Source: Sulfobacillus benefaciens (GTDB lineage: Bacteria > Bacillota > Sulfobacillia > Sulfobacillales > Sulfobacillaceae). From it: 64,000 bases of DNA. A model generated the notes under the pieces. The model was not told where the DNA came from. It saw only the letters and a program-made list of their open reading frames with translations, and searched no databases. The stretch lies in the NCBI GenBank assembly GCA_003023725.1, contig PXYT01000001.1:1-64000 (forward strand), written 5' to 3'. Positions 7,004 to 24,936 of this stretch are shown here, one piece after another. The position numbers and the translations under genes are program-made. The first letter of the stretch is position 1. Every line of letters starts with the position of its first letter.

Positions 7004-7124
7004 GATGATTTCTCCTAGTGTGTTGGTGAATGCCGTATTTGGATACGCCATTATTATAAAAACCCACATCGCCAGCAGCAATCATCTACAGCACGTTACC
7101 GGGATTTTTCGAACTAATCACCTC

Positions 7125-8297
7125 TTACAACGATTTGAGTTTCATGGTAAAGGGAATGCTAAGCAACAGGAGAACGGCAGTAACACTCAAGGCCATCTCC
7201 GTACTCGTCTGCTTTGCCAAAAATCCGATACCGGCCACTGCCACGGCACCCAGTGTGTTGCCCACCCCCAGCGTCAGACCCGATGCCATCCCTTTGTTAT
7301 TCGGGAAGAGAGCCTGCCCGTAGACCATAACCACTGATGCGGTAGAATAAAGAGCAAACCCAAGAAGGCCCATTGAAATCCAGATGAAGGGACCTTGTGC
7401 GTGCAAAAACCACCACAAGAACACACTCGACAAGATGGCGGATCCGATTAATACCGGTTTGGCTCCCAACCGATCGGAAAGGGCTCCTCCAGACATATTC
7501 CCTAAACTTCCCAAGAGAAATAACACGGACAACAAGGCAGCGGCTTCCCCTAAGGGGCGATGTCGGGCATGCCACAATATGGGGACCAGCGTCATCGTGG
7601 CCAGGCTAGCCATATTCCTCAGCATGACAATCAGCAACAGATTTCCGGAGTGCTTCAATCCCCGACGAAATTCCGGTGTCCATATCTTCACATCGCGGGT
7701 TTTAGGCTGGGGACTAGGACGCATCACAAACCACATCACGCCAGCCATCGCCATTCCAGGAAGAGCCAAAATCCATAGACCATGGCGCCCAAAATATAGA
7801 AAAGTCGTTGTCGCCGCGATCGGGGCAATGGCCCGGCCAATATTTCCTCCAATCATAAACAGCCCCATGCCCAGTCCCTTGCGTGCCCCAGATAAATCCC
7901 CGACCAAAGCAGAAGCGTGGGGATGAAACGCCGCGTTGCCGATTCCTCCGATGAGAAGGGCCACAACAAAGATGCCATAAGTGGGCGAGAACGCGAGCGC
8001 CGCAGCCGAGACAATACTTCCGGCCATGAGTCCGCCCACCACAAAATAGCGTGTGCCAACACGGTCGGCCCACAGACCCATTAAGGGCTGAAGCAACTGG
8101 GTTGTCAGGGCCGCAATCGAACTCAGCAGGCCTGCCAGAACCACGGAAAAATGCATTGCCACCATTAAGACAGGCAAGAGAGCCGGGTATAAATTCGGAT
8201 AGGAATCATTCAAAAAATGGGCAACCGTAAAAAATCCCGTTTTCCATAAACTGCGATTGCGCCGGGGAACCGCGGTGGCCGTACCTGTCGTGATCAT
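7125..8297 (-). CDS. MFS transporter, fosmidomycin-resistance (Fsr)-like
   Basis: 390 residues with about 12 hydrophobic segments, a major facilitator. Family marks are VAHFLNDSYPNLYPALLPVL at the N-terminus (Fsr-like), LMGLWADRVGTRYFVV (the motif A loop between TM2 and TM3), GGIGNAAFHPHASALV and GGALSDRLGAKPVLIG. Fsr-type proteins export small antimicrobial or metabolite molecules by proton antiport; the substrate here is unknown. The start at 8297 follows AGAAGG at 7 bases. The upstream promoter overlaps a perfect palindrome, and the RpiR regulator gene follows downstream, suggesting local control. Confidence 0.82.
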   Translation of the reverse strand: MITTGTATAVPRRNRSLWKTGFFTVAHFLNDSYPNLYPALLPVLMVAMHFSVVLAGLLSSIAALTTQLLQPLMGLWADRVGTRYFVVGGLMAGSIVSAAALAFSPTYGIFVVALLIGGIGNAAFHPHASALVGDLSGARKGLGMGLFMIGGNIGRAIAPIAATTTFLYFGRHGLWILALPGMAMAGVMWFVMRPSPQPKTRDVKIWTPEFRRGLKHSGNLLLIVMLRNMASLATMTLVPILWHARHRPLGEAAALLSVLFLLGSLGNMSGGALSDRLGAKPVLIGSAILSSVFLWWFLHAQGPFIWISMGLLGFALYSTASVVMVYGQALFPNNKGMASGLTLGVGNTLGAVAVAGIGFLAKQTSTEMALSVTAVLLLLSIPFTMKLKSL

Positions 8298-8736
8298 TGT
8301 GACGCCTTCTCTCGTTAAAGATTCTGAGACTGTCATTTCTTTTACTGTCATTATCAGTATACTGATTATTTTATTCCTGGCAAGTTCATACGCAACAAAT
8401 CATGGTTTCCCGTTTCTTTGTTCCACCCCTAGTCTAAATCTCACTCTGAACTTAGAGACACATTTGCCGGGAATTTCTTGAGTGCGAACGACGGGAAATC
8501 ACGAGCCGAGAAGTCAAGGCAGCGTAACCCACGGTCACTGCCCCAGAAATCACCCGATTTTGTTCCCGAGACAAAAGGGCCATGCTGTATGCCTTTAAGC
8601 GGATATTGCCCAGCAGATTCAGGAAATCTTCAGATTGGAAAGTGGCAAACCCCATTATAATCGGTAATGAAATTTTGATGAATACTTGAGTTACATCAAA
8701 AAAGAATTTCGCATCTTAGAGTAAAGGAATGGGTAC
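8298..8736. other. Divergent intergenic region between MFS gene and PQQ-repeat lipoprotein gene
   Basis: About 440 bases. The left end holds the MFS promoter and operator-like repeats described separately. The middle (8400-8650) shows nothing recognisable. The right end holds the leader of the lipoprotein gene, with AAAGGA before ATG 8737. Confidence 0.5.
8329..8383 (-). promoter_or_regulatory. Promoter and operator-like repeats of the MFS gene
   Basis: On the minus strand, TTGCCA (8378-8383), a 16-base spacer and TATACT (8356-8361) form a good vegetative promoter. The -10 lies inside a perfect 14-bp palindrome, ATCAGTATACTGAT (8353-8366). Just downstream are two direct copies of ACTGTCATT (plus-strand sense) at 8329-8337 and 8344-8352, 15 bases apart. 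This is the arrangement of a repressor site. The adjacent RpiR-family gene is the obvious but untested candidate. Confidence 0.6.
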
Positions 8737-10035
8737 ATGAAGCAATTACGTTATCTCATCACCATAGCTATTCTGGGAGCAACGGTTCTGGCAGGCTGCG
8801 GAGTGTTTTCGGGACGGCCCGGCTGGCCCGATGTTGCCGACGCCCAAATTGGGGCATTGAACTGGACTAGTTACGGGCTAGGCGGGTCACACAACACCGT
8901 GGTGGACCCCGGTGCCAATTTCAGCGCCAACTGGACACGGCAGTTTTCTCAGCCCTTGATGCAACCGGCCGTAGTCCGCGGAGTGGTCTACGTGGGGGGA
9001 ATCGGAACCCAGCCGGCAGTGTATGCCCTCAATGCCAAAACCGGGAAGACTCTGTGGAAAACACCGCTCGATAATCAGGTCATGACAACCCCGGTGGTGG
9101 TAAATGGGGAAGTTTTCGTGGGCACCGGCAATCATAACTTTCCCGTAAGTCATGTACCGCAATACGGCACCAACATTGTGCGGGGCAATGGCCCCAATGC
9201 CATCTACGCCCTGAGCGCCAAAAACGGAAAAATCATCTGGAAACACAGTACACCGGGAGAAAATATGCCAACCTTTGTCTACCGTAATAATACATTATAC
9301 AGCGCCAACGGCAGTGATGAGGTTCTGGCACTGAATGCCACCAACGGACAGACCCAATGGAAACTCCCTATTGGCTCCTACGTCAGCATGTCCTCACCGG
9401 AACTCGTCGGAAATCTTCTGTACTTCGGTGGTGCTCATCCCTACGCCATGTATGCCATCAACGTCAAAACCCATCGCATCCAGTGGATGCATACGTTTCC
9501 GCATCCCCTCGGCGGTTCGGATGACGTTTCGCCGGCCGTGTCCGGCAACAACGTCTATGTGGACGCGGTCGTAGCTGTTCACGGAAAACCGCATGAAGTA
9601 TTTTACGCGTTTAACCGTCAGAACGGCCGTCTTGAATGGACGTTTGATGAAGGCACCGGAAAGATTCCCCATGGCCCTCACGGGGGTCCCCGGGACGAAA
9701 CGGTGGCACCCTTGGTCCACAACAACACAATTTACATAGGCAGCCCGCTCAACAACATACTATATGCATTAAACTCTCAGAACGGCCAATTGCTTTGGAA
9801 ACAACAACTAAATGGCACTCTGATGCAATCCCCCATTGCCCATAACGGGATCCTGTATGTTGGCGACACCAAGGGCCGATTTCTAGCCATCCAGGCCTCT
9901 AATGGAAAAATATTGGGATCTCGACAGTTTAAAGGACCTTTTATGCCTTCCAGTCCGGTTCTCGTTGGTCACACCATTTTTACCGGAACCCGTTTAGGAG
10001 AGTTTATGGCAGTCCCCTTATCCACACTGCATTAA
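8737..10035 (+). CDS. Lipoprotein with PQQ-type beta-propeller repeats
   Basis: 432 residues. A lipoprotein signal peptide (LVAGC-like lipobox ATVLAGC) precedes about seven repeats of the PQQ-enzyme/BamB type, recognisable as YALNAKTGKTLWK, YALSAKNGKIIWK, LALNATNGQTQWK, YALNSQNGQLLWK. The protein would be lipid-anchored on the outer face of the membrane. Catalytic residues of quinoprotein dehydrogenases are not evident, so a binding or scaffolding role is as likely as an enzyme. It is a single-gene unit; a strong stem-loop lies about 180 bases downstream. Confidence 0.8.
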   Translation: MKQLRYLITIAILGATVLAGCGVFSGRPGWPDVADAQIGALNWTSYGLGGSHNTVVDPGANFSANWTRQFSQPLMQPAVVRGVVYVGGIGTQPAVYALNAKTGKTLWKTPLDNQVMTTPVVVNGEVFVGTGNHNFPVSHVPQYGTNIVRGNGPNAIYALSAKNGKIIWKHSTPGENMPTFVYRNNTLYSANGSDEVLALNATNGQTQWKLPIGSYVSMSSPELVGNLLYFGGAHPYAMYAINVKTHRIQWMHTFPHPLGGSDDVSPAVSGNNVYVDAVVAVHGKPHEVFYAFNRQNGRLEWTFDEGTGKIPHGPHGGPRDETVAPLVHNNTIYIGSPLNNILYALNSQNGQLLWKQQLNGTLMQSPIAHNGILYVGDTKGRFLAIQASNGKILGSRQFKGPFMPSSPVLVGHTIFTGTRLGEFMAVPLSTLH

Positions 10036-10400
10036 ATTTACTGGGAAAGGAGCCTCCTGCTTTACTCCTTACCCGCTCTTTTTCGCGGTTGGCTGTCCTC
10101 TCGCGTGAACATCAGAGGCGCCATCCATTGTTCAAAGATTCACGCCTTGGACCTGCAGCAATTTCCACTACATCCCGGCTTTGTTGCCAACTTGGCGGCA
10201 CTGCTTTTCTCTCCCAAACGGCAAGCCATGCCGTTTGGGATTTTGGCGCGTGTCAGCCGAGGAGGGAAGAGGATATGCTTGCCTAGCCCGAAACCAGTTT
10301 AAAAATTCCGCCAAAGCTTCCGGGCCACACACCCAAGGCAGCGACAGAGCATAATTCTGTCCACCAAACGCATTTTTCCCTACCCAGGAATATTCCCGCC
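10036..10400. other. Intergenic stretch between convergent genes
   Basis: 365 bases with no supportable gene. It contains the 11-bp stem-loop at 10213-10239, listed separately; the remainder has no recognisable feature. Confidence 0.5.
10213..10244 (+). terminator. Stem-loop, probable terminator
   Basis: Perfect 11-bp stem CCCAAACGGCA/TGCCGTTTGGG with a 5-base loop, followed on the plus strand by ATTTT. The T tract is short and it lies about 180 bases after the lipoprotein stop, so it is a plausible but imperfect intrinsic terminator between convergent genes. Confidence 0.5.
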
Positions 10401-11198
10401 TTAACGCGCTCTTAAAAAGCTGTCGATGACGGACGCCACTTGCTCGGGAGATTCGATCATGGGATAGTGACCAGCAGAGGAAATTTGGACAAAACGTGCT
10501 CCCGGAATCTGTTGCAAAGGTTCCGAATCGGATGCCAGCATTCGGTCATGCTCACCCCGAATTACCAGAGTCGGACAGTGGATACGAGGCAAAAGATGCT
10601 CAATGTCGGTGCTCAGATTAGTATGAAGCGTCTGTTCCAAAACATGGCGGGTGATTTTTCGAATCGCTTCTTTTTGTTTCGTCACCACGTCCGGAGCCGG
10701 CACACGGTAAAAAGCCTGCATCCAAATACGATTAAGAATCTCGGGTTGACGGTGTTCGGGCGTCCGGTAAATTAACTTTTCCACCCGCTGCAAATGTCGT
10801 TTGGTTGTGCGAGAAACCGAAGGGGCACTACCACCCGGAAAAGTGTCAAGCACAACCAGAGCGTTCACATAATGGCGTACTTTGGCTGCAATGAATAACG
10901 CTCCCGCCCCGCCGAAGGAATGACCGATTAACGTTACCGGCTGAATATTCCAACGACGGATAAGTCGGATCGTATCACGGGCATAATCTTCGATGGCATA
11001 CCCAGCTGGGGGCTTGTCGGTGTCCCCGAATCCACGCACATCCACAAGATAAGCCCGGTAGAACTCCATCGGCAAATGATTGAGCAGGGGGTACCAACTC
11101 TCTTTGGACATCAGCCAGCCATGCAAAAACAATAAAGGATGGGATCCTGTACCGACAACATCAAAAGATACGGATATATTGCCAACCGATACATACAT
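10401..11198 (-). CDS. Alpha/beta hydrolase
   Basis: 265 residues, standard single-domain alpha/beta hydrolase. LLFLHGW (oxyanion-hole HG) is near residue 26, the nucleophile elbow GHSFGG gives Ser94, an acid is in VIRGEHDRM and the catalytic His is in SSAGHYPMIE. A cap region lies between residues 130 and 200. The substrate cannot be inferred; the set includes esterases, epoxide hydrolases and C-C hydrolases. ATG 11198 follows AAGAAGGA at a good distance. It stands alone, divergent from the next lipoprotein gene. Confidence 0.85.
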   Translation of the reverse strand: MYVSVGNISVSFDVVGTGSHPLLFLHGWLMSKESWYPLLNHLPMEFYRAYLVDVRGFGDTDKPPAGYAIEDYARDTIRLIRRWNIQPVTLIGHSFGGAGALFIAAKVRHYVNALVVLDTFPGGSAPSVSRTTKRHLQRVEKLIYRTPEHRQPEILNRIWMQAFYRVPAPDVVTKQKEAIRKITRHVLEQTLHTNLSTDIEHLLPRIHCPTLVIRGEHDRMLASDSEPLQQIPGARFVQISSAGHYPMIESPEQVASVIDSFLRAR

Positions 11199-13999: not shown

Positions 14000-14323
14000 A
14001 ATTCTGATGCTCCTTTTTATCAGGGTAATTAGTCCTACTGCTATTCCTTTATATTATAAACCCAGAAACAAACCCAAAAATCCCCCCTGTTTCCACCCAA
14101 AATAGGAGATCCCAAAAGAGCGCAAGACCTCTCGATCTTCCCACCGCATCCCATGGCCTGGGTTTTTTTCTTTAACCCTTACTATCCTTGCCCAACCACT
14201 CCCACGAAATCATGAAATTTTGTGTTATCATTTCTCAGTAGCGTGTATAATTTTTACCCTTTTAAAACAAGTCAGGCAATTTTTGCGATCATCCTTGATG
14301 CCGCCGCAAGGAGAAAACAAATT
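14000..14323. other. Divergent intergenic region with promoter-like elements
   Basis: 324 bases. A small CCCA/TGGG hairpin followed by seven T (14150-14169) looks like a weak plus-strand terminator. A TATAAT hexamer at 14246-14251 is a candidate -10 for the downstream oxidase gene, without a good -35. Confidence 0.4.
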
Positions 14324-16825
14324 ATGCAAACATTCGCTGAAGGGTCGTTGCACCAAAGCATTCAAAATCTCCTTGTTCCAATCGATTCAGAGCAAAAACA
14401 GCAGTTTATGGTGACGCTGGCTCCGTTTTTTGGAAATCGCCTCCTTCTCCAAGCGGACCGCTTAACAGCCTACAGCTATGACGCGACGGCAGAACAATAC
14501 CGTCCGGATGCCGCGTTAGTCGTCGAAAATGAAGATGAACTCAGGCGAGTTCTGGAAGCGGCGGACAAATTCGGTATCCCAGTGATTGCCCGCGGGTCCG
14601 GAAGCAACATCAGCGGGGGCACTCTGCCCATCGTGGGTGGTATCGTCCTTTCCCTGACGCGTCTGAAACACATCCGGAAGATAGATCCCGAAAACAGGTC
14701 GGCGACCGTAGAACCCGGTGTAGTCAACGCCGATTTGCAGATGGCTTTAAAGCCTTATGGATTCTTTTTTCCACCTGACCCCGCAAGCCACCGCATTGCC
14801 ACTGTCGGCGGCAATGTGGCAGAAGGATCCGGCGGCCCGCACTGCGTAAAGTATGGTACTACCACTCACTATGTCAGATCGTTGCGGGTGCTGTTGGCAG
14901 ATGGTACGCCTGTGGTGTGTTCGGATAAATTCACACGGGTCGACTGGCCTGGTTTATTAACCGGATCGGAAGGAACACTGGCGGTCATCACCGAAATGAC
15001 AGTCCGTATTCTTCCTCTGCCTTCTCATACCGGTATGCTGCTCGCAGGATTTTCATCGGTCGTGGAAGCGGTGTCGGCCGTTTCCGGGATCGTGCGGGCC
15101 AGGCAAATTCCCTCGACCTTGGAACTTTTGGACAAAGCCACGTTGGATACTGTCAGACCGTTCATTAACGCCGGCTATCCGAATTCCGAGGCTGTGCTGT
15201 TAATTGAGGTCGATGGCTCAGAAGCCTCCGTACAACAACAACTAGAGCAACTGGTGGCTATTTTAAAGACGTTTCATGCTGAACCTATAGTGGTTGCCGA
15301 AACACCTGAACAAGCCGACAGGCTGATGGCGGCACGGCGATCAGCTTATGGAGCCGCGGCCCGACTGGCATCACATGTTTGGACCCAAGATGTCACCGTT
15401 CCCCGACCTCTTTTGGCCGACATGATGAGCCACGTCCTCACTATTGCCCGGCATTATGCTCTGTCCATTAACACCGTAGCTCATGCCGGCGACGGTAACC
15501 TGCACCCCCTTATCCCGTTTCACCCCGACAACCGGGACGAAGTGGACCGCATGCGAGCGGCCGATCATGACATCCTGCAAAAAGCCACCGAGCTGGGCGG
15601 CTCCATAACCGGAGAGCACGGTATCGGCATAGACAAGCTCCATGAACTGCCGCTTATGTTTTCTGAAGATGAATTAAGTGCCATGTATGCCGTAAAAAGA
15701 GCATTCGACCCGCGAGGACTACTCAATCCCGGAAAGGCAGTCTTACCTGTTACTGCGGAACCGTCCGTCTCCGCCCCACCCCAATACCCGCCCTTGCCTG
15801 GCTCCCTGGAACCCGGTTCTATTCCGGAACTGAGGGAGATACTCCGCAACGCCGAATTTCAGCATGCGCCTCTAGGCACTGATCAAAACCGCTATCAGGG
15901 TGAATGCCGGATATCTTTAACACATCTTCGAAACATTGTGGATTTCGATCCCGATAACATGACCATCACTGTGGAAGCCGGTATGCCTTTCGAGGATTTC
16001 GCCGCGTTTCTCCGTGATCACCGGCTTATGTTTCCACCCGTCCCCCTCCATTCTCAACAAACACTGGGAGCACTCGTAGCGGAAGGGCTGCCCCATCTCA
16101 CCCAATTTGGCTACGGCCCTTTGAAGAACTGGATTCTGGGTGTAGAAGTCGTTGATGGACGGGGTTGCCTTCTCCGTTTCGGACGCAAGATCATGAAAAA
16201 TGTCGCTGGGCTGGATATGCCCAAACTTTTTATTGGTTCACTCGGTCAGTACGGGATTATCACCACCATCATCTTGCGGTTGCAACCCGAAATTCCCACT
16301 CCCCGTGTTTACACTTTAGAGCGTGGGGCACTGACCGGGACGAAAGACCAGGATTTGGTCCGCAAGCTGTCCCCTTTGGCACCGGGCGTCCAAGGACTGT
16401 GGATGTTTTCGGGGCAAATCGTGATTTTTCTCGATGGCCGGGATTTGGCTACACAGGAAAGTCAACTACAAACGGTTTTGCAGGATCTGAACTGTTCGTA
16501 TCAAACCCACGAAGCAGCGCCTGTTATCGCAATGACGCAATCCTTCCTTTCCGGTTTGTATCACCGGGCGTATGATAACAATCAGGCGATTATTCTGGGA
16601 TGTGGACAGGCCGAGGGGGTCCGCGATCCTTACTATCTGCAGTTGGACGGCAGTCTATGGATAGCGCCGGAGACGAACCAGAACCTTAAGGCATTTCCGG
16701 GATCACGCCGCTTAGACCAATCGGGGTGGCACATCCTGGGGCCGGAAGATCCGCATTTGGCAGCCATTGCGGAGAGAATCAAACACTATTTCGATCCCGC
16801 CAAAATCTTAACCCACGTTCCATAA
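14324..16825 (+). CDS. Fused FAD-linked oxidase, GlcD-GlcE-like
   Basis: 833 residues joining two FAD-binding PCMH-type units. Residues 1-480 match a GlcD/lactate-dehydrogenase-type subunit: IARGSGSNISGG and VGGNVAEGSGGPHCVKYG contact FAD, and HAGDGNLHPLIPF with GEHGIGIDKL are typical of its C-terminal domain. Residues 490-833 resemble the shorter GlcE subunit (GALVAEGLPHLTQFGYG, GRKIMKNVAGLDMPKLFIGSLG). In glycolate oxidase these are separate proteins working with an iron-sulfur subunit GlcF, which is absent here. The start at 14324 follows AAGGAG; the frame is open upstream without homology. Next to it, a DapA-like aldolase suggests 2-hydroxy/2-oxo acid catabolism. Confidence 0.8.
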   Translation: MQTFAEGSLHQSIQNLLVPIDSEQKQQFMVTLAPFFGNRLLLQADRLTAYSYDATAEQYRPDAALVVENEDELRRVLEAADKFGIPVIARGSGSNISGGTLPIVGGIVLSLTRLKHIRKIDPENRSATVEPGVVNADLQMALKPYGFFFPPDPASHRIATVGGNVAEGSGGPHCVKYGTTTHYVRSLRVLLADGTPVVCSDKFTRVDWPGLLTGSEGTLAVITEMTVRILPLPSHTGMLLAGFSSVVEAVSAVSGIVRARQIPSTLELLDKATLDTVRPFINAGYPNSEAVLLIEVDGSEASVQQQLEQLVAILKTFHAEPIVVAETPEQADRLMAARRSAYGAAARLASHVWTQDVTVPRPLLADMMSHVLTIARHYALSINTVAHAGDGNLHPLIPFHPDNRDEVDRMRAADHDILQKATELGGSITGEHGIGIDKLHELPLMFSEDELSAMYAVKRAFDPRGLLNPGKAVLPVTAEPSVSAPPQYPPLPGSLEPGSIPELREILRNAEFQHAPLGTDQNRYQGECRISLTHLRNIVDFDPDNMTITVEAGMPFEDFAAFLRDHRLMFPPVPLHSQQTLGALVAEGLPHLTQFGYGPLKNWILGVEVVDGRGCLLRFGRKIMKNVAGLDMPKLFIGSLGQYGIITTIILRLQPEIPTPRVYTLERGALTGTKDQDLVRKLSPLAPGVQGLWMFSGQIVIFLDGRDLATQESQLQTVLQDLNCSYQTHEAAPVIAMTQSFLSGLYHRAYDNNQAIILGCGQAEGVRDPYYLQLDGSLWIAPETNQNLKAFPGSRRLDQSGWHILGPEDPHLAAIAERIKHYFDPAKILTHVP

Positions 16826-16897: not shown

Positions 16898-17791
16898 ATG
16901 AGCGAAACTGTCCTGCAAACTGCCTTGATTACGCCTGTAACGTCGGATGGCGAACTGGATGAAAACGCCTTGGACCGTCTGGTCCCTCGTATTTTGGCAG
17001 CCGAAACTCTAGGATTTTCCATCTTGGGATCAACCGGGGAAGGCGCCAGTGCATCGCTTAACCTGCGCAGACAAATGCGCGAAGCAGTCCTGAAGCGGGT
17101 CGGCGGACACCGGGAAGTCTATAGCGGAATTATCAGTACCGTCCCGGACGAAATCCGACGCGATGTGGACGCCTGCCGAGACTTACCTCTGACGGGATTG
17201 CTCATTCCGCCGCCGGCGTACTATCCCTTGGATTCTCAAGATTTGGAACAATTTTACCGGGAACTGGCCGATTTCGTGCCTGTTCCTATTATGCTATATA
17301 ACATTCCCCCCTATACCAAAGTGAGCATTCCGCCCGAGACCGTGGCCAAATTGGCCGTTCATCCGAATATTATGGGGATAAAAGACAGCAGCCGCGATCT
17401 CGATTATTATCTTCGTGTTTTGCACCTGACCCAATCGGTGCCGGGCTTCAAAGTGTTAATCGGGACCGACACCTTAATCTTGCCTGCATTAGCCGCAGGA
17501 GGGCACGGCGCCGTCGTAGCATCGGGCAATATTGTGCCCGAATGGATAGCCGATCTTGTTCACAGTGCGGAACGCGGGGACTTTAGTCACGCCCGTGTCA
17601 TGGAAAGCCAGTTGATCGAGCTAGCCAATGCGTTAGGCCGGGCGGACGGAATCCGTGGATTCAAATTTGCCGCAGCTGCCATCGACCGCCACCAGGGTTG
17701 CCTCATCGCCCCCTATCACGCGCTGGATAAAGAATCTCCCGCGGCCCTGGCCATCCTGGACGTGCTCAAACGCTACCATCTCATCAGCTGA
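16898..17791 (+). CDS. DapA-superfamily aldolase/lyase (not the lysine-pathway copy)
   Basis: 297 residues, class I aldolase of the dihydrodipicolinate synthase/N-acetylneuraminate lyase superfamily. GSTGEGASASL is the phosphate/substrate loop, YNIPPYTK the tyrosine motif and IMGIKDSSRD holds the Schiff-base lysine. It is divergent from the dapA at 47532-48494, which sits in the dap cluster, so this paralogue more likely cleaves a sugar-derived 2-oxo acid such as a 2-keto-3-deoxy acid or 4-hydroxy-2-oxoglutarate. It follows the GlcD-GlcE-like fusion by 72 bases with its own AAGGAG site, probably one operon. A terminator follows. Confidence 0.8.
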   Translation: MSETVLQTALITPVTSDGELDENALDRLVPRILAAETLGFSILGSTGEGASASLNLRRQMREAVLKRVGGHREVYSGIISTVPDEIRRDVDACRDLPLTGLLIPPPAYYPLDSQDLEQFYRELADFVPVPIMLYNIPPYTKVSIPPETVAKLAVHPNIMGIKDSSRDLDYYLRVLHLTQSVPGFKVLIGTDTLILPALAAGGHGAVVASGNIVPEWIADLVHSAERGDFSHARVMESQLIELANALGRADGIRGFKFAAAAIDRHQGCLIAPYHALDKESPAALAILDVLKRYHLIS

Positions 17792-17831: not shown

Positions 17832-17857
17832 AAAAAGCCGCCTTAGGGCGGTTTTTT
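17832..17857 (+). terminator. Rho-independent terminator after the oxidase-aldolase pair
   Basis: A CCGCC/GGCGG stem with a TTAG loop, preceded by five A and followed by six T. It is therefore intrinsic on the plus strand and nearly symmetrical. It lies 40 bases past the aldolase stop. Confidence 0.85.
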
Positions 17858-18013
17858 GATCGAATTCAGGCAGTGTTCATCTTCTTGCCGCTACAGGCGA
17901 ATAAGGGGCATAGTCCCGAACGAAGCACAAGCAGGACATCTTTTGGAAGGACAACGCACCGGTGTATCTGTATCGAGATGCCTTCGTCATCTCAGGGTGT
18001 TTGTGTTTCCGCT

Positions 18014-18043
18014 CGAATAGAAAACCGGATAGGGGTCACACTA
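18014..18043 (+). promoter_or_regulatory. Candidate forespore (sigma-G type) promoter of the ger operon
   Basis: CGAATA (18014-18019) and CACACTA (18037-18043), separated by 17 bases, each differ by one base from the Bacillus sigma-G elements TGAATA and CATACTA. The element lies 16 bases before the start of the gerA-type gene, whose relatives are forespore-expressed. Evidence is by consensus only. Confidence 0.5.
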
Positions 18044-18059
18044 CCGCCAGGAGGATGTT

Positions 18060-19679
18060 GTGATCGTGGAGAATTCCGTGCTACAACCCAAGGAGGTCAA
18101 CGCTATCATGACCCAGGCGGCATCATTGATCGGAGAACTCGATGGGTGGATTCCTTTGTTATCTCAGGCTCCTGATGCGCTGACTCATTATTATCCCCAT
18201 TTATCCGCGGTTTATCATCGTTTAAAAGCCGGCATGGGATCCAGCCCGGACGTTTTGCTGCGTTGGATCGTCGTGCCGGCTTGCGCACCGGAAAAAGTGC
18301 TCATAGCCTCCATCGACGGTCTTTCTGATTCGCAGATGGTCGACCAGGACATTATCGCTCCGTTGTTGAAAACCACTAAGACCCCCGAATCCTGGGGCGA
18401 AGCCGTGATCACTCCGGGCCACGTTCACGCGGAAACCGAATGGGATCGAATCCTCCAAGCCCTGGCCGCGGGCAATACGTTGGTGTTTGCTCCCCGGCTT
18501 GACAAAGTCTGGGTGGTTGACACCGTCACGTATCGTCAGCGCGCCATCGATCGTCCGCAAACCGAAATTAGTGTGCGGGGGCCCGAAGACGCGTTCAATG
18601 AAGTGATCCTGACCCAGATGAATCAATTGCGTCAGCGTATCCTCGATCCGCATCTGCACTTTCAGCAGTTGACGATCGGAACACGACAGCACGCCACCGT
18701 CGCCGTTGCCTATTTGGCAGGAGTAGCCAATCCGGCCCTGGTGGCCACGTGTCTGGATCGGCTTCAAAGGGTCGACATTTCGGGTCACGCCAACGCCACC
18801 TTGATTGCGGGATTAATCCGCGATCACCCCCGGTCGATTTTTCCCACGATCCGCTCCACCGAACGGGTCGATATGGCCTGTTGGAATCTTCTCGCCGGCA
18901 AAGTGGTCATCCTCGTGGACGGGGATCCCTTCGTTCTCATCGCCCCCGCATCCCTGGCTGATTTCTACCGGACTGCCATGGATTATTCGGATGCGTGGTA
19001 TGATACCTCGTTCGTGCGAGTTATCCGTCTCGTAGCCTGGATTTTCGGTGTGTACTTTCCCGCCCTCTACATTGCCCTGACCCAGGTCAATCCGAATTTA
19101 GTGCCGGCCACGTTGCTCATTATTACTTTAGGAGATCATGCGGCGCTCCCTTTCTCCCCGTTTGTCGAGGCCATACTGATGGTTTTGGTGGTAGAGATCT
19201 TGCGGGAAGCGGCTCTGCGCCTGCCCCAAGCGATGAGTACCACTATCGGCACGGTCGGGGCCATTGTGGTCGGGACCGCGGTGGTCAAAGCAGGTTACGT
19301 GAGTCCCCAAATTATTGTCGTCATGACCCTGACGGCACTCAGCTTTTTTTCGGTGCCGGTCTACGAACTCACCGGCACCTGGCGCGTCGTCAATGGCGTA
19401 ATGTTATTGATCTCAGCGGTGTTAGGCATATTAGGCATCATGTTGGCCACTTTGTTTCTGGGCGGCCTGTTAATGTCCATGACCTCGTTCGGCACTCCCT
19501 ACCTGTCGCCTGTGGCTCCACTGCGCCTTAAGGACTGGAAAGACTATTTGATGCGGACTCCATGGGCCAGCATCCGCTCCCATCTCAGCACTTCCCGTCC
19601 CTTATCCGCAACCTGGAATGATACCCCAACCGCTCAGGAGCCGCCGAATCTGAAAAAGAGCCGGGAGCATCGTCGATGA
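18060..19679 (+). CDS. Spore germination protein, GerA family A subunit
   Basis: 539 residues. The A subunit of a nutrient germinant receptor in the spore inner membrane. It has a soluble N-terminal domain of about 300 residues (with VDGDPFVLIAPASLADFYRTAMDYSDAWY before the first membrane segment), four or more transmembrane helices (about 320-490) and a basic C-terminus. The start GTG 18060 is 5 bases from GGAGG; GTG 18066 would give the more usual spacing of 11 and cannot be excluded. The stop overlaps the next start (ATGA), so the genes are translationally coupled. A sigma-G-like promoter lies just upstream. Confidence 0.88.
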   Translation: MIVENSVLQPKEVNAIMTQAASLIGELDGWIPLLSQAPDALTHYYPHLSAVYHRLKAGMGSSPDVLLRWIVVPACAPEKVLIASIDGLSDSQMVDQDIIAPLLKTTKTPESWGEAVITPGHVHAETEWDRILQALAAGNTLVFAPRLDKVWVVDTVTYRQRAIDRPQTEISVRGPEDAFNEVILTQMNQLRQRILDPHLHFQQLTIGTRQHATVAVAYLAGVANPALVATCLDRLQRVDISGHANATLIAGLIRDHPRSIFPTIRSTERVDMACWNLLAGKVVILVDGDPFVLIAPASLADFYRTAMDYSDAWYDTSFVRVIRLVAWIFGVYFPALYIALTQVNPNLVPATLLIITLGDHAALPFSPFVEAILMVLVVEILREAALRLPQAMSTTIGTVGAIVVGTAVVKAGYVSPQIIVVMTLTALSFFSVPVYELTGTWRVVNGVMLLISAVLGILGIMLATLFLGGLLMSMTSFGTPYLSPVAPLRLKDWKDYLMRTPWASIRSHLSTSRPLSATWNDTPTAQEPPNLKKSREHRR

Positions 19680-20761
19680 TGGCACGACGTCTGGCCTGGA
19701 GTCTCAGCGGCTTGCTGGCGCTGCCTTTGAGCGGCTGCTGGGATGTTCATCCCCTGGAGGACCAAGGGATTGTCCTGGCTATCGGAGTTTCCCATGGCTC
19801 TCAGAAGGGAGCATTGCGGTGGACCTTCACGTTTCCCAACGTGACCCTGTCACCCAGTTCCCTGACGAGTGTCAAGCGCCGCGAACAGTATTACGACGTA
19901 ACGGTACACGCCTCGACGTTTGGCGACGCAGTAATGCGAGCCCAGCAAAAATCCAGCCGCATTATCTATCTCGGCCAGCTTCAAGGCCTGATCTGGCCGG
20001 ATACGCTGTCCTGGCGGCAATTATGGCCGATCGTTGCCGCGTTGAATGCCCAGGGCCCCATCCCCAAAACCTTCTGGATGATGGCGGCCACGCCTCCCTT
20101 GCAGGCTGTGATGAAATTTGTGTCTCCTCAAGTTGTGGCTCCCCGGACTTATCTGGCGACGTATTTCGATTGTGTTCATTGCCAGCCTTTTAGCCTGGCT
20201 CAGCGGGGATGGGAGTTCTGGTCCCATTCGCTCACCCCGGGTGTCAGCCCCTATGTGCCCCTGGTTAATCTGGAACATGGTAACGTGGCGATTCGCCAGA
20301 TTGTCGTCTACCCCTCCTCTGGACATCCTGTCCTGTACTCTCCACAGGAAACCGAGGGCTTTGGCTTCTTGAGTGGAAAAGTCAAGCGCGCTGCCTTGTC
20401 GGTACATTGGAACGGCCATACCGTGGAGTTGACCAAATTGCACGATGGCCGTAGCGTGTCCGTGCGAAAAGCCCCCGGTGGCATTATGGTCAATGAAACC
20501 CTCCGGGTTTCGGGATTCATCGGTGAGCCGCCCGCCGAATCATCCCCCTTGCGCAGCCAGAATCTGATCCGCCGACTCGCCCAACAACGCATTGTCACCT
20601 GGTGCCTGGCGGCCATCCGTCAGGCCAACAACACGCGCACTGATCCCTTTGGCTACGCCGCTTCCGTTCTTTGGAGCCAGGGAAAACGTACGCCATTTCT
20701 GCCGATTCATGCCCACATCACGGTCTCGGTATCTCTCAAAGGAGAAGGTATGCTGCGATGA
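19676..20761 (+). CDS. Spore germination lipoprotein, Ger(x)C family
   Basis: 361 residues. The C subunit of the germinant receptor: signal peptide and lipobox PLSGCWD followed by the characteristic CWDVHPLEDQGIVLAIGVS start of the family, and a C-terminal region as in GerAC/GerBC. It would be anchored by a diacylglycerol on the outer face of the spore inner membrane. It overlaps the preceding A subunit and the following B subunit by 4 bases each. The gene order A-C-B differs from the A-B-C of Bacillus subtilis gerA. Confidence 0.88.
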   Translation: MMARRLAWSLSGLLALPLSGCWDVHPLEDQGIVLAIGVSHGSQKGALRWTFTFPNVTLSPSSLTSVKRREQYYDVTVHASTFGDAVMRAQQKSSRIIYLGQLQGLIWPDTLSWRQLWPIVAALNAQGPIPKTFWMMAATPPLQAVMKFVSPQVVAPRTYLATYFDCVHCQPFSLAQRGWEFWSHSLTPGVSPYVPLVNLEHGNVAIRQIVVYPSSGHPVLYSPQETEGFGFLSGKVKRAALSVHWNGHTVELTKLHDGRSVSVRKAPGGIMVNETLRVSGFIGEPPAESSPLRSQNLIRRLAQQRIVTWCLAAIRQANNTRTDPFGYAASVLWSQGKRTPFLPIHAHITVSVSLKGEGMLR

Positions 20762-21882
20762 CGTCAACAGTCGAACCCATAGGGCCGCTGCAGTTCTTCT
20801 TCTTTCTCACCATGTCAATGGTCACGGGAGGCGTCTTTATCTGGCCGGAAGCCGTGCTCTCTACGGCCGGAAACAATGCTCTATGGGCCATTACCGGCAG
20901 TATTATGCTGGCCCTGGCCACCACGGCCGCTCTGTTTGTCTGGATGAGCCTGACAGGCCCAGGGATCTTCGTGGACCGCCTTCATCAAACCTGGGGATTT
21001 CTCGCTTGGCCCTGGATACTCAGTTTCTCCCTATTACGCGTTGTGCTCGACGCCGCGCTCGTGACCCTCTTTTCGCAAATGCTCAGCACCATTTTCTATC
21101 CGTTGACCCCCCTGTGGGTGTTGAAGCTCATAATTCTCGCCGAAGCCGCATGGTTTGGGGGGCGCCGGCTGACGATATTGAGCCGCAATATTCAGTTCTG
21201 GTTTCCCGTACTGGCTTTTAGTTTTTTCCTGTTGGCCTCTCTGGCTTTCGGCAATGTTCAGTCTTGGTGGGCTTTGCGGCCTTCGAGCCACGTGGTTCTC
21301 ACACCCTTGACGCAAGCGGTCATCGGCACATGGTTTCTGTGGGCTCAAACCGACGTGCTACTCACCATCTCCCATTTTATGCGTCCCGCCAGGGCCGGCT
21401 TAGTTCGGAAACTGACGGTGGCAGCCATCCTCTTCCACAGCGTTGTCATTGTCGTGATTTATATGATTACTGTGGGGGCCCTGGGACCGGAGGCCGTCAT
21501 GACTCTTCGCTGGCCACTCGTCTATGTTCTGAGCAACTTGTCGAGCCATACCTTCTATCTGAGCCGTCCCGGACTGATTATTTTGCTGACATGGACCGGG
21601 GGCATGGTATTCTTCTCGGCTTCCCACCTCTTCTGTCTCGGCATGAACCTCTCGCAGCTCGCCGCCCGCTCCTTTCGTTGGACCCCCCAAATCAGCTGGG
21701 GGGCCGCTACAGTAGAATTCGGCGGATCCTTTCTCTTGCCCAGTGCCGCCGTGGCGTCTCATGTCGTTCTGAACGTGTTCGATCCGCTTTCTCTCGTCTT
21801 GGTCAGCATTTTGTTAACCGTCTCCATCGTGATCCGCTTGGTCATGAATCGGCAAAGAATCCGGAAAAACACAACATTTTAG
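20758..21882 (+). CDS. Spore germination permease, GerAB/APC family
   Basis: 374 residues with about ten hydrophobic segments, the B subunit of the receptor. It belongs to the endospore germination permease branch of the APC transporters and binds the germinant. The N-terminus IGPLQFFFFLTMSMVTGG is typical. The start ATG 20758 overlaps the gerC stop, arguing against the longer open frame upstream. Germinant specificity cannot be read from sequence. Confidence 0.87.
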   Translation: MTSTVEPIGPLQFFFFLTMSMVTGGVFIWPEAVLSTAGNNALWAITGSIMLALATTAALFVWMSLTGPGIFVDRLHQTWGFLAWPWILSFSLLRVVLDAALVTLFSQMLSTIFYPLTPLWVLKLIILAEAAWFGGRRLTILSRNIQFWFPVLAFSFFLLASLAFGNVQSWWALRPSSHVVLTPLTQAVIGTWFLWAQTDVLLTISHFMRPARAGLVRKLTVAAILFHSVVIVVIYMITVGALGPEAVMTLRWPLVYVLSNLSSHTFYLSRPGLIILLTWTGGMVFFSASHLFCLGMNLSQLAARSFRWTPQISWGAATVEFGGSFLLPSAAVASHVVLNVFDPLSLVLVSILLTVSIVIRLVMNRQRIRKNTTF

Positions 21883-21908
21883 ATTAGAGAAACAAGGAGT
21901 GTTCATCC

Positions 21909-23393
21909 ATGGCCACCGTTATCACGGCATCCGAGGGGATTGTGCTCATCACCGTCTTAAGTACGCTCGTCACGTTTACCGTAGTCATTGTGGGCGGGTG
22001 GTGGGGAATTCGGCGATTGTCCCGGCATCTCGAACATTTGGCGGGAACCGTTCCCCGAACGAACCTTTTCGAGCTCTTTTTCATGCTCAAATCCTGGTCA
22101 TGGCGGGAGATTCTTTTGACACTGCAGCGTTCCGAGACCGGAAAAGGAGCGCAGCATCCCATGGGGTCGGTTGTCACCGACACTCCTTGGCTGGATCAAC
22201 TGGCTTTCGACCCGGTAACCCTGGACCCCAGTCCTCCTGTGCCTAAAGATATCTCGCTGCGGGTGACAATTGGGCCCCGGGCCAAAAAACCGTTGGTGCT
22301 GGAACTTCCTGTGCTCGTCGCCCCTATGGGATACGGCGTGGGATTAACAGCAGCAGCCAAAACCGCCTTGGCCCAAGTGGCAGCCCTCGCCGGAACGGCC
22401 ACATCGTCCGGCGAAGGACCCTTCTTGCCGGAAGAACGGGCATATGCCCACAAGTGGATTTTGCAATGGTCGCAAGGCCCGTGGAATCACCAAAAGGAGG
22501 TGGTCCGGCTCGCAGACATGGTGGAAATTCATCTGGGCCAGGGGGCCGAAGGTCAAATTCATATCTCTCGGCACAAACATTTGCCGCGCCGGCTTAAGCG
22601 TATGGTTCAAGGGAAATCGGTGGTGATTCGCGGCGGAACGCCTCCTCTTCCGTACTTGTTCACTCATCTCAAACGGATAAACCCTGACATTCCCATCGGC
22701 GTCAAATTGATCGCCAGCAACCATATTGAGAAGGACCTGCAAATCCTGATGCGCTGGCCCGTAGATGTCATTACCGTGGATGGTCAGGAGGCGGCCAGCC
22801 AAAACAGTCCCGCCGTGATTTCCGATCACTTCGGCATCCCTACAGTCTGGGCCGTGATCAGAGCTCGGCGGTGGCTTAAACGCCACCACATCCATCACAT
22901 CACTCTGATTGCCTCTGGCGGCGTTAAAGGGGCTGCGGACATTGCCAAACTTATCGCTTTGGGTGCCGATGCGGTGGCGCTGGGATCACCCCTCCTTTTG
23001 GCGGTCAGCCACGAGCAGCTTTCGAAATTCTTGCCCTTGTCCTGGCACGGGCCAAGCCGGCTGGTGTTTGCCGACCATTCTTCTCACATGGCCGCCCGTT
23101 TTGATGTGGGACAGGCCGTCCATCACGCTGTCAACTGGTTCACATCCACAGCCGACGAATTGCGAACCATTCTGGAAGCATTAGGTCTGGACAAAGTCGC
23201 AGCACTAAATCCCGGCCTTCTTATCGCCAAAACCGAGAACGCTGCCCCGTTATTGGCTGTGTCCCGACTAGAAGTCCCGTTCCTTGTAACCCAGTTGGCT
23301 GGATTGACCGACAGCTATAAAGAACTAAACCATTGCCTTCTCGAACAATACCGCTTACTGCGAACTCAAAAGGAGAGGATATCCGGTGCATAA
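21909..23393 (+). CDS. Membrane-anchored FMN-binding glutamate-synthase-family protein
   Basis: 494 residues. One N-terminal transmembrane helix (about 10-35), then the FMN/synthase barrel of the GltB family: LVAPMGYGVGLT, GTATSSGEGP, DMVEIHLGQGAEG and the FMN-phosphate segment LIASGGVKGAADIAKLIALGADAVALGSPLL. In glutamate synthase this domain makes glutamate from 2-oxoglutarate and ammonia. Here the only cysteine is near the C-terminus, so the 3Fe-4S cluster ligands of true GltB are missing, and there is no glutaminase domain. It follows the ger genes by 26 bases with AAGGAG and overlaps the next gene, so it is probably cotranscribed with the germinant receptor. Its reaction is unknown. Confidence 0.8.
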   Translation: MATVITASEGIVLITVLSTLVTFTVVIVGGWWGIRRLSRHLEHLAGTVPRTNLFELFFMLKSWSWREILLTLQRSETGKGAQHPMGSVVTDTPWLDQLAFDPVTLDPSPPVPKDISLRVTIGPRAKKPLVLELPVLVAPMGYGVGLTAAAKTALAQVAALAGTATSSGEGPFLPEERAYAHKWILQWSQGPWNHQKEVVRLADMVEIHLGQGAEGQIHISRHKHLPRRLKRMVQGKSVVIRGGTPPLPYLFTHLKRINPDIPIGVKLIASNHIEKDLQILMRWPVDVITVDGQEAASQNSPAVISDHFGIPTVWAVIRARRWLKRHHIHHITLIASGGVKGAADIAKLIALGADAVALGSPLLLAVSHEQLSKFLPLSWHGPSRLVFADHSSHMAARFDVGQAVHHAVNWFTSTADELRTILEALGLDKVAALNPGLLIAKTENAAPLLAVSRLEVPFLVTQLAGLTDSYKELNHCLLEQYRLLRTQKERISGA

Positions 23394-24555
23394 CGTGGTC
23401 GTGCTGGGATCGCGATTTGGAGGATCGGCTACCGCCTACTGGCTCTCCAAACTGTTTGAACGTCGTGAAATTACGGTCACCATCGTGGATCAATGGACTT
23501 TGATGACATACCGGCCCGCTCTTGTCCGCGTGGCCGCGGGCCATCCAGCTCAGGCCGACAACTGGCACATTCCCATGGTCCGCCGCTACCAGCGGGCGGG
23601 GTTTCGGTTTATACGGGACACGGCGTATCAAATCGACCCCCGTGCCCAAAAAATCCATCTGGCCACTCATCCTCCACTCCCATATGACACCGTTTTCGTG
23701 GCCACGGGGGCCGATCCTGCCTGGGAAGCCATCGACGGGTTAGGGCCCCATCATGGCGGGGTGTGTGAAGACTATCTGGCCCGCCAAACCGCATATGCCC
23801 TGTCCAAGACTGCGGGGCCTATAGTCGTCGGCGTCGGCCCCTTATATTATTCAGGTAGTCCGGTTCGGCTGCGGGCGTCCCTGGATGTTCCTGCGCTGGA
23901 GGTGGCCTTTCTTCTCGATGCCTGGCTCAGCAAGCATCGCCGGCGTCAGGACATTCCTATTACGGTGATCACTCCCGCTTGCGTTCCCGGTGAATCTTTG
24001 GGCCCCAAAAGTCAGGCCATACTGACCCGCGAATTGGAGCGACGCCAAATTCAGCTCATTGCCGAATCCAAGGTCGAGCAAGTCGGCGACTCCCATATAA
24101 CCCTCTACCCCCAGCGTGTGATAAAGGCCGATCAGATGATCTGGATCCCCCCTTATCACGGATCTCAACTAGCTCGCCGCAGCGGCCTGGATGATGGCTG
24201 GGGATGGATCCCCACGGACAAGTATTGCCGTCACGAGAAATGGTCCAACGTTTATGCCGTGGGCGACATCAACCGCTCCGCACTGCCAAAACTGGGCCAT
24301 ATTGCCATGTTACAGGCAAAGGTTGCTGTCCATGCATTGTGGGCAGCCATGCATCACAAGTCTGCACAACCTTTTACTCCTTTTGTTCTGCATGTAATCT
24401 GGACGGGCCACGGCCGGGGACTCTTTACCCTCAGTGACATTTTATATGGGGGAAAGCGGGACTGGGTCTATTTCGGAGCACCTGCATCCCTAGCCAAAAC
24501 GGCGTTTAACGCAAGCTACCGCTTTTTTTCCGGCTGGATGCCGATTATGCCTTAG
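23386..24555 (+). CDS. FAD-dependent oxidoreductase, SQR/NDH-2-like
   Basis: 389 residues. Rossmann FAD motif at the extreme N-terminus (VVVLGSRFGGSATAYWL), a central VFVATGAD, and VYAVGDIN binding the flavin ribityl. The overall pattern is that of type II NADH dehydrogenases and sulfide:quinone oxidoreductases, which reduce membrane quinone. Cysteines are present (in CEDYLARQ, TPACVPGE and YCRHEKW), but whether they form the SQR active-site pair needs alignment. The GTG start overlaps the previous stop by 8 bases, and no ribosome binding site separates them beyond AAAGGAGAGG in the previous gene. It is the last gene of the ger unit. Confidence 0.75.
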   Translation: MHNVVVLGSRFGGSATAYWLSKLFERREITVTIVDQWTLMTYRPALVRVAAGHPAQADNWHIPMVRRYQRAGFRFIRDTAYQIDPRAQKIHLATHPPLPYDTVFVATGADPAWEAIDGLGPHHGGVCEDYLARQTAYALSKTAGPIVVGVGPLYYSGSPVRLRASLDVPALEVAFLLDAWLSKHRRRQDIPITVITPACVPGESLGPKSQAILTRELERRQIQLIAESKVEQVGDSHITLYPQRVIKADQMIWIPPYHGSQLARRSGLDDGWGWIPTDKYCRHEKWSNVYAVGDINRSALPKLGHIAMLQAKVAVHALWAAMHHKSAQPFTPFVLHVIWTGHGRGLFTLSDILYGGKRDWVYFGAPASLAKTAFNASYRFFSGWMPIMP

Positions 24556-24936
24556 AAAAATGAGCAGCACTGTTCCCCGGGGCTACCAGCTTTAGGGGTG
24601 GGGTAATGACACGATGACATCTCCTCCTCAACGCCTACGCCATCATACGCGATTTTCCGCATCACCTCTCACCGCAGAGTCCCGCTTGTGGCATGGTCAA
24701 AGACCGAGCGAAACCGCCTTTTAGACGCGTCGCAGCCCTCAAGCACCGCTGAAATATGTCACGACTTGTGGACCACAGGCGTGATGGCGCCATCTTAAGT
24801 CCTCTTCATTCAAAGAACCCCCGGTACATCTCCAATGGTGAATAGGAATCCAGCATGACATCTCTCGCACAATCAGAGGAGCCTGTCACCCCATCGCCTG
24901 AACATTTCACGGCAAAAAAGAGGAATCGGTCTATTG
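24556..24936. other. Intergenic stretch before the diguanylate cyclase
   Basis: 381 bases without a gene. No c-di-GMP riboswitch signature or clear terminator was found. Only the AAGAGG site before the next start stands out. Confidence 0.45.

Follow-up and report, generated by a model that had tools for sequence, protein, structure and literature searches.

The DNA analyzed here, a 64-kb window that is part of a 4.56 Mb draft genome of the acidophilic spore former Sulfobacillus benefaciens, contains an operon whose germinant receptor part is ordinary and which, judged by sequence comparison, is a new and conserved Ger operon variant, extended by genes for two flavoproteins. All three Ger subunits are encoded on one strand, match their Pfam families above the cut-offs and overlap by 4 bases, the arrangement by which a GerA-type operon is recognized. 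They are followed by genes for a GltB-like FMN protein and an SQR/NDH-2-like FAD oxidoreductase (Table 1). The spacing along the + strand is -4 bases for gerA/gerC, -4 for gerC/gerB, +26 for gerB/FMN and -8 for FMN/SQR-like; an earlier sequence-only reading had described this tight row of five genes, and open reading frames and Pfam matches confirmed it. A second in-frame gerA start, with a good Shine-Dalgarno sequence, is present at 18108, and the coding sequence directly after the GTG is conserved in two related loci (L044 and L045). The upstream neighbor is a DHDPS-like gene with its end at 17791, beyond which come a hairpin and T run (listed on the - strand, 17851-17838, by the scan), so that the row starting with gerA seems to be a unit of its own; the next gene downstream, at 24934, encodes a GGDEF protein. 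Farther upstream (14222-16825), and followed by the DHDPS-like gene, is a single 867-aa ORF with two FAD_binding_4 stretches (Pfam), which resembles what we take to be a fused glycolate-oxidase GlcD-GlcE.

Table 1. Features of the extended ger operon and its upstream border (positions in the 64-kb window)
Feature	Position	Strand	Evidence
Terminator-like hairpin and T run, end of upstream DHDPS-like unit	17838..17859	+	Read from sequence
Sigma-G-like promoter, GAATA-17-CACACTA	18015..18043	+	Conserved block 5' of gerA, 5/5 aligned species
gerA, germinant receptor A subunit	18060..19679	+	PF03323, 459.5 bits; 539 aa from GTG
gerC, lipoprotein subunit	19676..20761	+	PF25198, 66.9 bits; PF05504, 28.6 bits
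gerB, permease-like subunit	20758..21882	+	PF03845, 37.7 bits (cut-off 23.4)
FMN gene, N-terminally membrane-anchored FMN barrel, GltB-like, without Fe-S Cys	21909..23393	+	PF01645 (Glu_synthase), 129.7 bits
SQR/NDH-2-like FAD oxidoreductase gene, without catalytic Cys pair	23386..24555	+	PF07992 (Pyr_redox_2), 71.1 bits

The promoter proposed in the earlier reading, whose interval starts at 18014, corresponds to GAATA-17-CACACTA and is weak as a lone match, since 35 of 200 300-base windows contain one of equal quality; its support comes from conservation. Alignment of the regions upstream of gerA from five species contains a single strongly conserved block, TCACACTA, just 5' of the Shine-Dalgarno sequence, with GNATR or GTATT located 17-18 bases 5' of the block. 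When a strict consensus was applied (at least 8 of 9 positions, excluding L068, which is near-identical to L067, and loci with <100 bases upstream), sites were found 5' of gerA in 4/5 loci of the genus set (shuffle mean 0.18) and in 7/14 outside it (0.63), 5' of gerB in 2/20 (0.87), 5' of gerC in 1/19 (1.13), and 5' of none of six SQR genes that overlap the FMN gene (0.13). Elsewhere in the same genome, SASP/SpoVA genes (L221, L223 and L224) are preceded, as read by eye, by a CATACTA -10 and a GNATR-like -35 at 18-19 bases, and no clear site of this type was seen by eye upstream of L220 and L222. The gap between gerB and the FMN gene contains no terminator-like site, and the sole nearby sigma-70-like match on the + strand (21586-21613) is inside gerB and at chance level (4 in the region versus 5.5 expected). 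Spacing, conserved promoter and terminator absence together support the prediction that the ger, FMN and SQR-like genes form one transcription unit, as the earlier reading had argued, and the conserved sigma-G-like promoter suggests that the ger operon may be expressed in the forespore.

The FMN protein (494 aa) has Pfam matches only to FMN-barrel-type families. Its AlphaFold model (mean pLDDT 91.3) begins with one long helix spanning residues 2-45, in agreement with the membrane anchor that had been predicted, followed by the barrel and C-terminal helices. The top Foldseek matches are glutamate synthase alpha chains, with glycolate/mandelate oxidases and type 2 IPP isomerase next, and the barrel aligns with that of GltB from the same genome, where a normal-length GltB-type gene is located elsewhere. 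What the protein shares with GltB is this PF01645 fold. No Cys is present in the FMN protein where same-genome GltB has its 3Fe-4S stretch (CxxCRGCQLDTC), and no Cys is conserved among 65 homologues; the alignment contains eight invariant columns, K266 among them. The GltB motif KxxQGAKPGEGG, which we take to be the substrate loop of glutamate synthase, is not kept and HLGQGAEGQIHIS stands in its place, so that the KIGQGAKPGEGG loop of same-genome GltB is replaced, and Pfam detects no glutamine amidotransferase domain. Because the 3Fe-4S cysteines, the amidotransferase domain and the substrate-loop motif are all missing, we rejected the FMN protein as a glutamate synthase, and the earlier suggestion that the operon generates its own glutamate-type signal is not supported. 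From its sequence, the protein should bind FMN, but it has lost both the electron wire and the substrate loop of glutamate synthase. It shares an N-terminal helix and FMN barrel with the PF01645-only "glutamate synthase family" proteins, of which Bacillus subtilis YerD is presumably a member, and differs from them in belonging to a separate clade (at least 630 bits versus at most 473) with ger linkage.

The SQR-like protein is modeled with comparable confidence (pLDDT 94.2) as a two-Rossmann FAD fold with a C-terminal helix, features it has in common with SQR, NDH-2 and FSP1. Its best fold matches are SQRs, followed by NDH-2, flavocytochrome c (FCSD) and FSP1, with a query TM-score of 0.84-0.87 against Acidithiobacillus ferrooxidans SQR, and the first profile match is Acidianus 3h8i (208.9 bits), labeled "NADH oxidase" in the profile-search listing and titled SQR in the fold search. 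Residues 148-157 (VGVGPLYYSG) also look SQR-like, unlike what we take to be the second GxGxxG pattern of NDH-2. The redox-active pair of SQR, which we take to be Cys178/Cys350 in 3h8i and Cys160/Cys356 in A. ferrooxidans, corresponds here to Leu166 and His336; not one of the 31 homologues has both cysteines, and only the third Cys (C127) is retained, in 30 of these proteins. Homologues from loci that also encode a methyltransferase (see below) mostly have CxC at the first catalytic position, and most homologues carry a conserved PxMP-like C-terminal tail. In the mirror image of the methyltransferase-type proteins, the SQR-like proteins of two loci unlinked to ger (L050 and L052) have Cys at the second position (column 336) and not at the first. 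The quinone-reductase-type fold that had been assigned from sequence stands, whereas true SQR chemistry is not supported, and we rejected a true SQR reading on account of the absent catalytic cysteines. On these comparisons, the enzyme names GltB and SQR are both misleading for this pair.

That the linkage is conserved in relatives had been set beforehand as one of the points on which the earlier reading could be refuted, and a neighborhood survey upheld it. A class-wide search with the FMN alignment delimited a clade of 30 proteins scoring at least 630 bits (the next scored 473 and the remainder at most 410), and neighborhoods of the corresponding genes were fetched and profile-searched for ger, methyltransferase and SQR-like genes. 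The ger genes directly adjoin the FMN gene in 22/30 clade members, comprising 19 complete gerA-gerC-gerB-FMN rows, one cut at a contig end (L062) and two with ger remnants (L058 and L063), and they lie 3.3 and 4.5 kb away in G004 and G005. Since 24 of the 30 members have ger either adjoining or only a few kb off, we rejected a chance neighborhood in a single genome. The remaining six (L048, L050, L051, L052, L069 and L073) are unlinked; L048 has a gerB fragment at a contig end 9.2 kb away, and L050-L052 have a divergent SQR-like gene beside the FMN gene, indicating that the pair can exist without an adjacent receptor. In G004 the operon is naturally divided into ger and FMN-SQR parts by ~3.3 kb (L047:9335-12484) of ORFs that, read by eye, resemble transposase genes.

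In the window's genus (the window, L044, L046, L047, L048 and L049) the SQR-like gene overlaps the FMN gene on the same strand and a methyltransferase gene is absent, but elsewhere in the family the SQR-like gene is mostly convergent. There the row is gerA-gerC-gerB-FMN followed by a UbiE-like methyltransferase gene and facing a convergent SQR-like gene: the methyltransferase, with UbiE/MenG-type matches, is found 3' of the FMN gene in 15 loci, and the convergent SQR-like gene is next in 14 of them. Three other ger-linked loci (L059, L060 and L061) also lack the methyltransferase, and an SQR-like gene inside a ger operon is found only in the window's genus and one distant genome. In both the FMN and the SQR-like tree, the window's genus stands apart from the family's main group of methyltransferase-type loci. 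In the SQR-like tree the genus joins the unlinked divergent pairs L050-L052 with modest support (85/72), and in the FMN tree it falls in a 13-row group with L050-L052, L053, L055 and L140 (85/91), again with modest support and unresolved internal order. By sequence, the FMN and SQR-like genes mostly go together, and attachment of the FMN gene to ger operons recurs.

Forespore-type promoter sites are also found where the two genes are arranged differently. In G001 and G005, where the FMN-SQR pair lies apart from ger, the FMN gene has, as read by eye, its own GCATA-18-CACGCTA or CACCCTA. The convergent SQR genes of L058 and L067 have perfect GCATR-CATNNTA sites upstream, and strict forespore-type promoters precede only 3/15 convergent SQR genes. 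A GGATA-18-CATCCTA-type site 5' of the methyltransferase gene is perfect in 8/14 loci and in most lies inside the FMN coding region, over a conserved Ala-Ser-Tyr; in L057, L058, L062, L065, L066, L074 and L075 a perfect sigma-G-like site falls within the 3' coding end of the FMN gene. Ala-Ser-Tyr is present in eight rows, with the Ala codon GCA in 7/8 (GCG in L063), and L062 has Thr (ACA) at this position. GCA is a rare Ala codon, accounting for 12% of those in seven of the methyltransferase-type FMN genes; its use at the site is no more than suggestive, since the genes are related. Read by eye in part, conservation of the promoter and the separate forespore-type sites where the pair is split from ger would link the pair to the forespore.

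Outside the clade, GerA lies within 3 kb of the FMN gene in 6/72 class loci, where the density of GerA across 61 genomes would lead one to expect 0.54 (Poisson 2e-5, a value that ignores kinship among phylogenetically non-independent loci); this count excludes 20 weaker loci and L140, whose FMN protein falls inside the clade in the tree. The six include two divergent arrangements (L070 and L153), one with FMN downstream (L154) and three with FMN 38-72 bases upstream (L187, L188 and L193). L193, from another family, has the order FMN-gerA-gerC-gerB-SQR-like on one strand, and the SQR-like protein encoded there shares only 26% identity with that of the window. In L140, also of another family, FMN-SQR faces gerB-gerC-gerA. 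Between the divergent GerA and FMN genes of L070 (7175-7735, G057) is a gene for a NapC/NirT-type multihaem cytochrome c (Pfam), a further redox gene at a ger locus. Beyond the class, GerA was within 3 kb in 1/30 FMN loci (L245), with L227 at 3.1 kb. The wider PF01645-only FMN family, clade included, is present in 82/154 class genomes and 119/398 phylum genomes (E<=1e-70). Among 36 genomes of families f1-f3, 22 have both a clade FMN protein and a GerA of at least 580 bits, a line picked post hoc after the data were seen, and 10 have neither; three (G023, G025 and G027) have FMN only and one (G007, 61% complete) has GerA only. In G006, of the same genus and 96% complete, the clade FMN protein, the SQR-like protein and the ≥580-bit GerA type are all missing together. 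Elsewhere in the window's genome (L082, C1:143000-161000), a GerA-like gene, spoVAF-like by position and adjoining SpoVA genes, is split in two by an OrfB_IS605/TnpB-type gene (Pfam; 7103-10531).

Our data lead us to favor, tentatively and at somewhat below even confidence, a Ger operon joined to an electron-transfer module of two flavoproteins, produced in the forespore and positioned at the core-facing side of the spore's inner membrane. The FMN protein would be held in the inner membrane of the forespore, its barrel probably projecting into the core, as the arginines after the helix suggest, and its partner in electron exchange would be a small cytosolic substrate; the FAD protein would sit peripherally on the same face of the membrane and pass electrons to or from quinone. 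Beside one particular Ger receptor, the module could report or set the local redox state, which in turn may license germination, or it may power an early germination step. The UbiE-like methyltransferase of relatives fits a quinone-linked module. For the pair itself, a quinone-facing role in the forespore inner membrane, presumably coupled to one Ger receptor, is the most likely reading.

The same methyltransferase could point to lipid chemistry instead: the pair and the UbiE-like enzyme of relatives would modify a quinone or some other isoprenoid lipid in the inner membrane of the spore, and they would be grouped with ger either because the receptor depends on that membrane or because all are forespore membrane genes. 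The UbiE/MenG-type matches, the quinone-reductase fold of the FAD protein and the likeness of the FMN fold to type 2 IPP isomerase are in keeping with such a role, but the methyltransferase is missing from the window's genus and from three other ger-linked loci, and we consider this explanation rather unlikely. About equally doubtful is that the pair serves general redox or protective functions and shares the ger promoter as a co-expressed passenger, functionally independent of the receptor. In its favor, six of the 30 clade members are unlinked, some with a forespore-type promoter of their own, and yerD, encoding the putative relative named above, appears in a gene list of the SigB-regulon paper PMC7824861; the repeated attachment to ger operons in varied layouts and the near co-occurrence with the ≥580-bit GerA type argue the other way.

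An enzyme that makes or consumes a small germinant, of the glutamate type or a 2-oxo acid, would turn the operon into a receptor with its own ligand enzyme, and the FMN-barrel relatives of the protein do include glutamate synthase and lactate and glycolate oxidases. The protein has none of the Fe-S cysteines, amidotransferase domain or substrate-loop motif that glutamate synthase carries, and a GltB-type gene of normal length lies elsewhere in the genome, which makes this improbable.

With all three subunits overlapping behind a forespore-type promoter, the operon resembles other GerA-family operons and differs in its A-C-B order and its two added flavoproteins. Known extra genes of ger operons include that for the small D subunit, and our searches of the open literature, subscription papers aside, turned up no account of a ger operon carrying flavoenzymes. 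How ligand binding leads to germination by Ger receptors is unsettled, and dormant spores are usually regarded as inactive in electron transfer. A conserved receptor operon with its own flavoprotein pair offers defined genes with which to test whether a waking spore senses or uses redox state, and the choice to germinate may be linked to electron transfer within the spore membrane. It is rather unlikely, in our estimate, that receptor output depends on a dedicated flavin/quinone module, that the dormant spore reads the redox state of its inner membrane or of some redox-active compound in the environment beside its nutrient ligand, and that YerD-like FMN proteins are germination factors. The operon gives this widespread FMN family its first functional lead and makes the family a testable germination candidate; if that unlikely reading is true, YerD-like FMN proteins across Bacillota would be an unrecognized family of germination factors.
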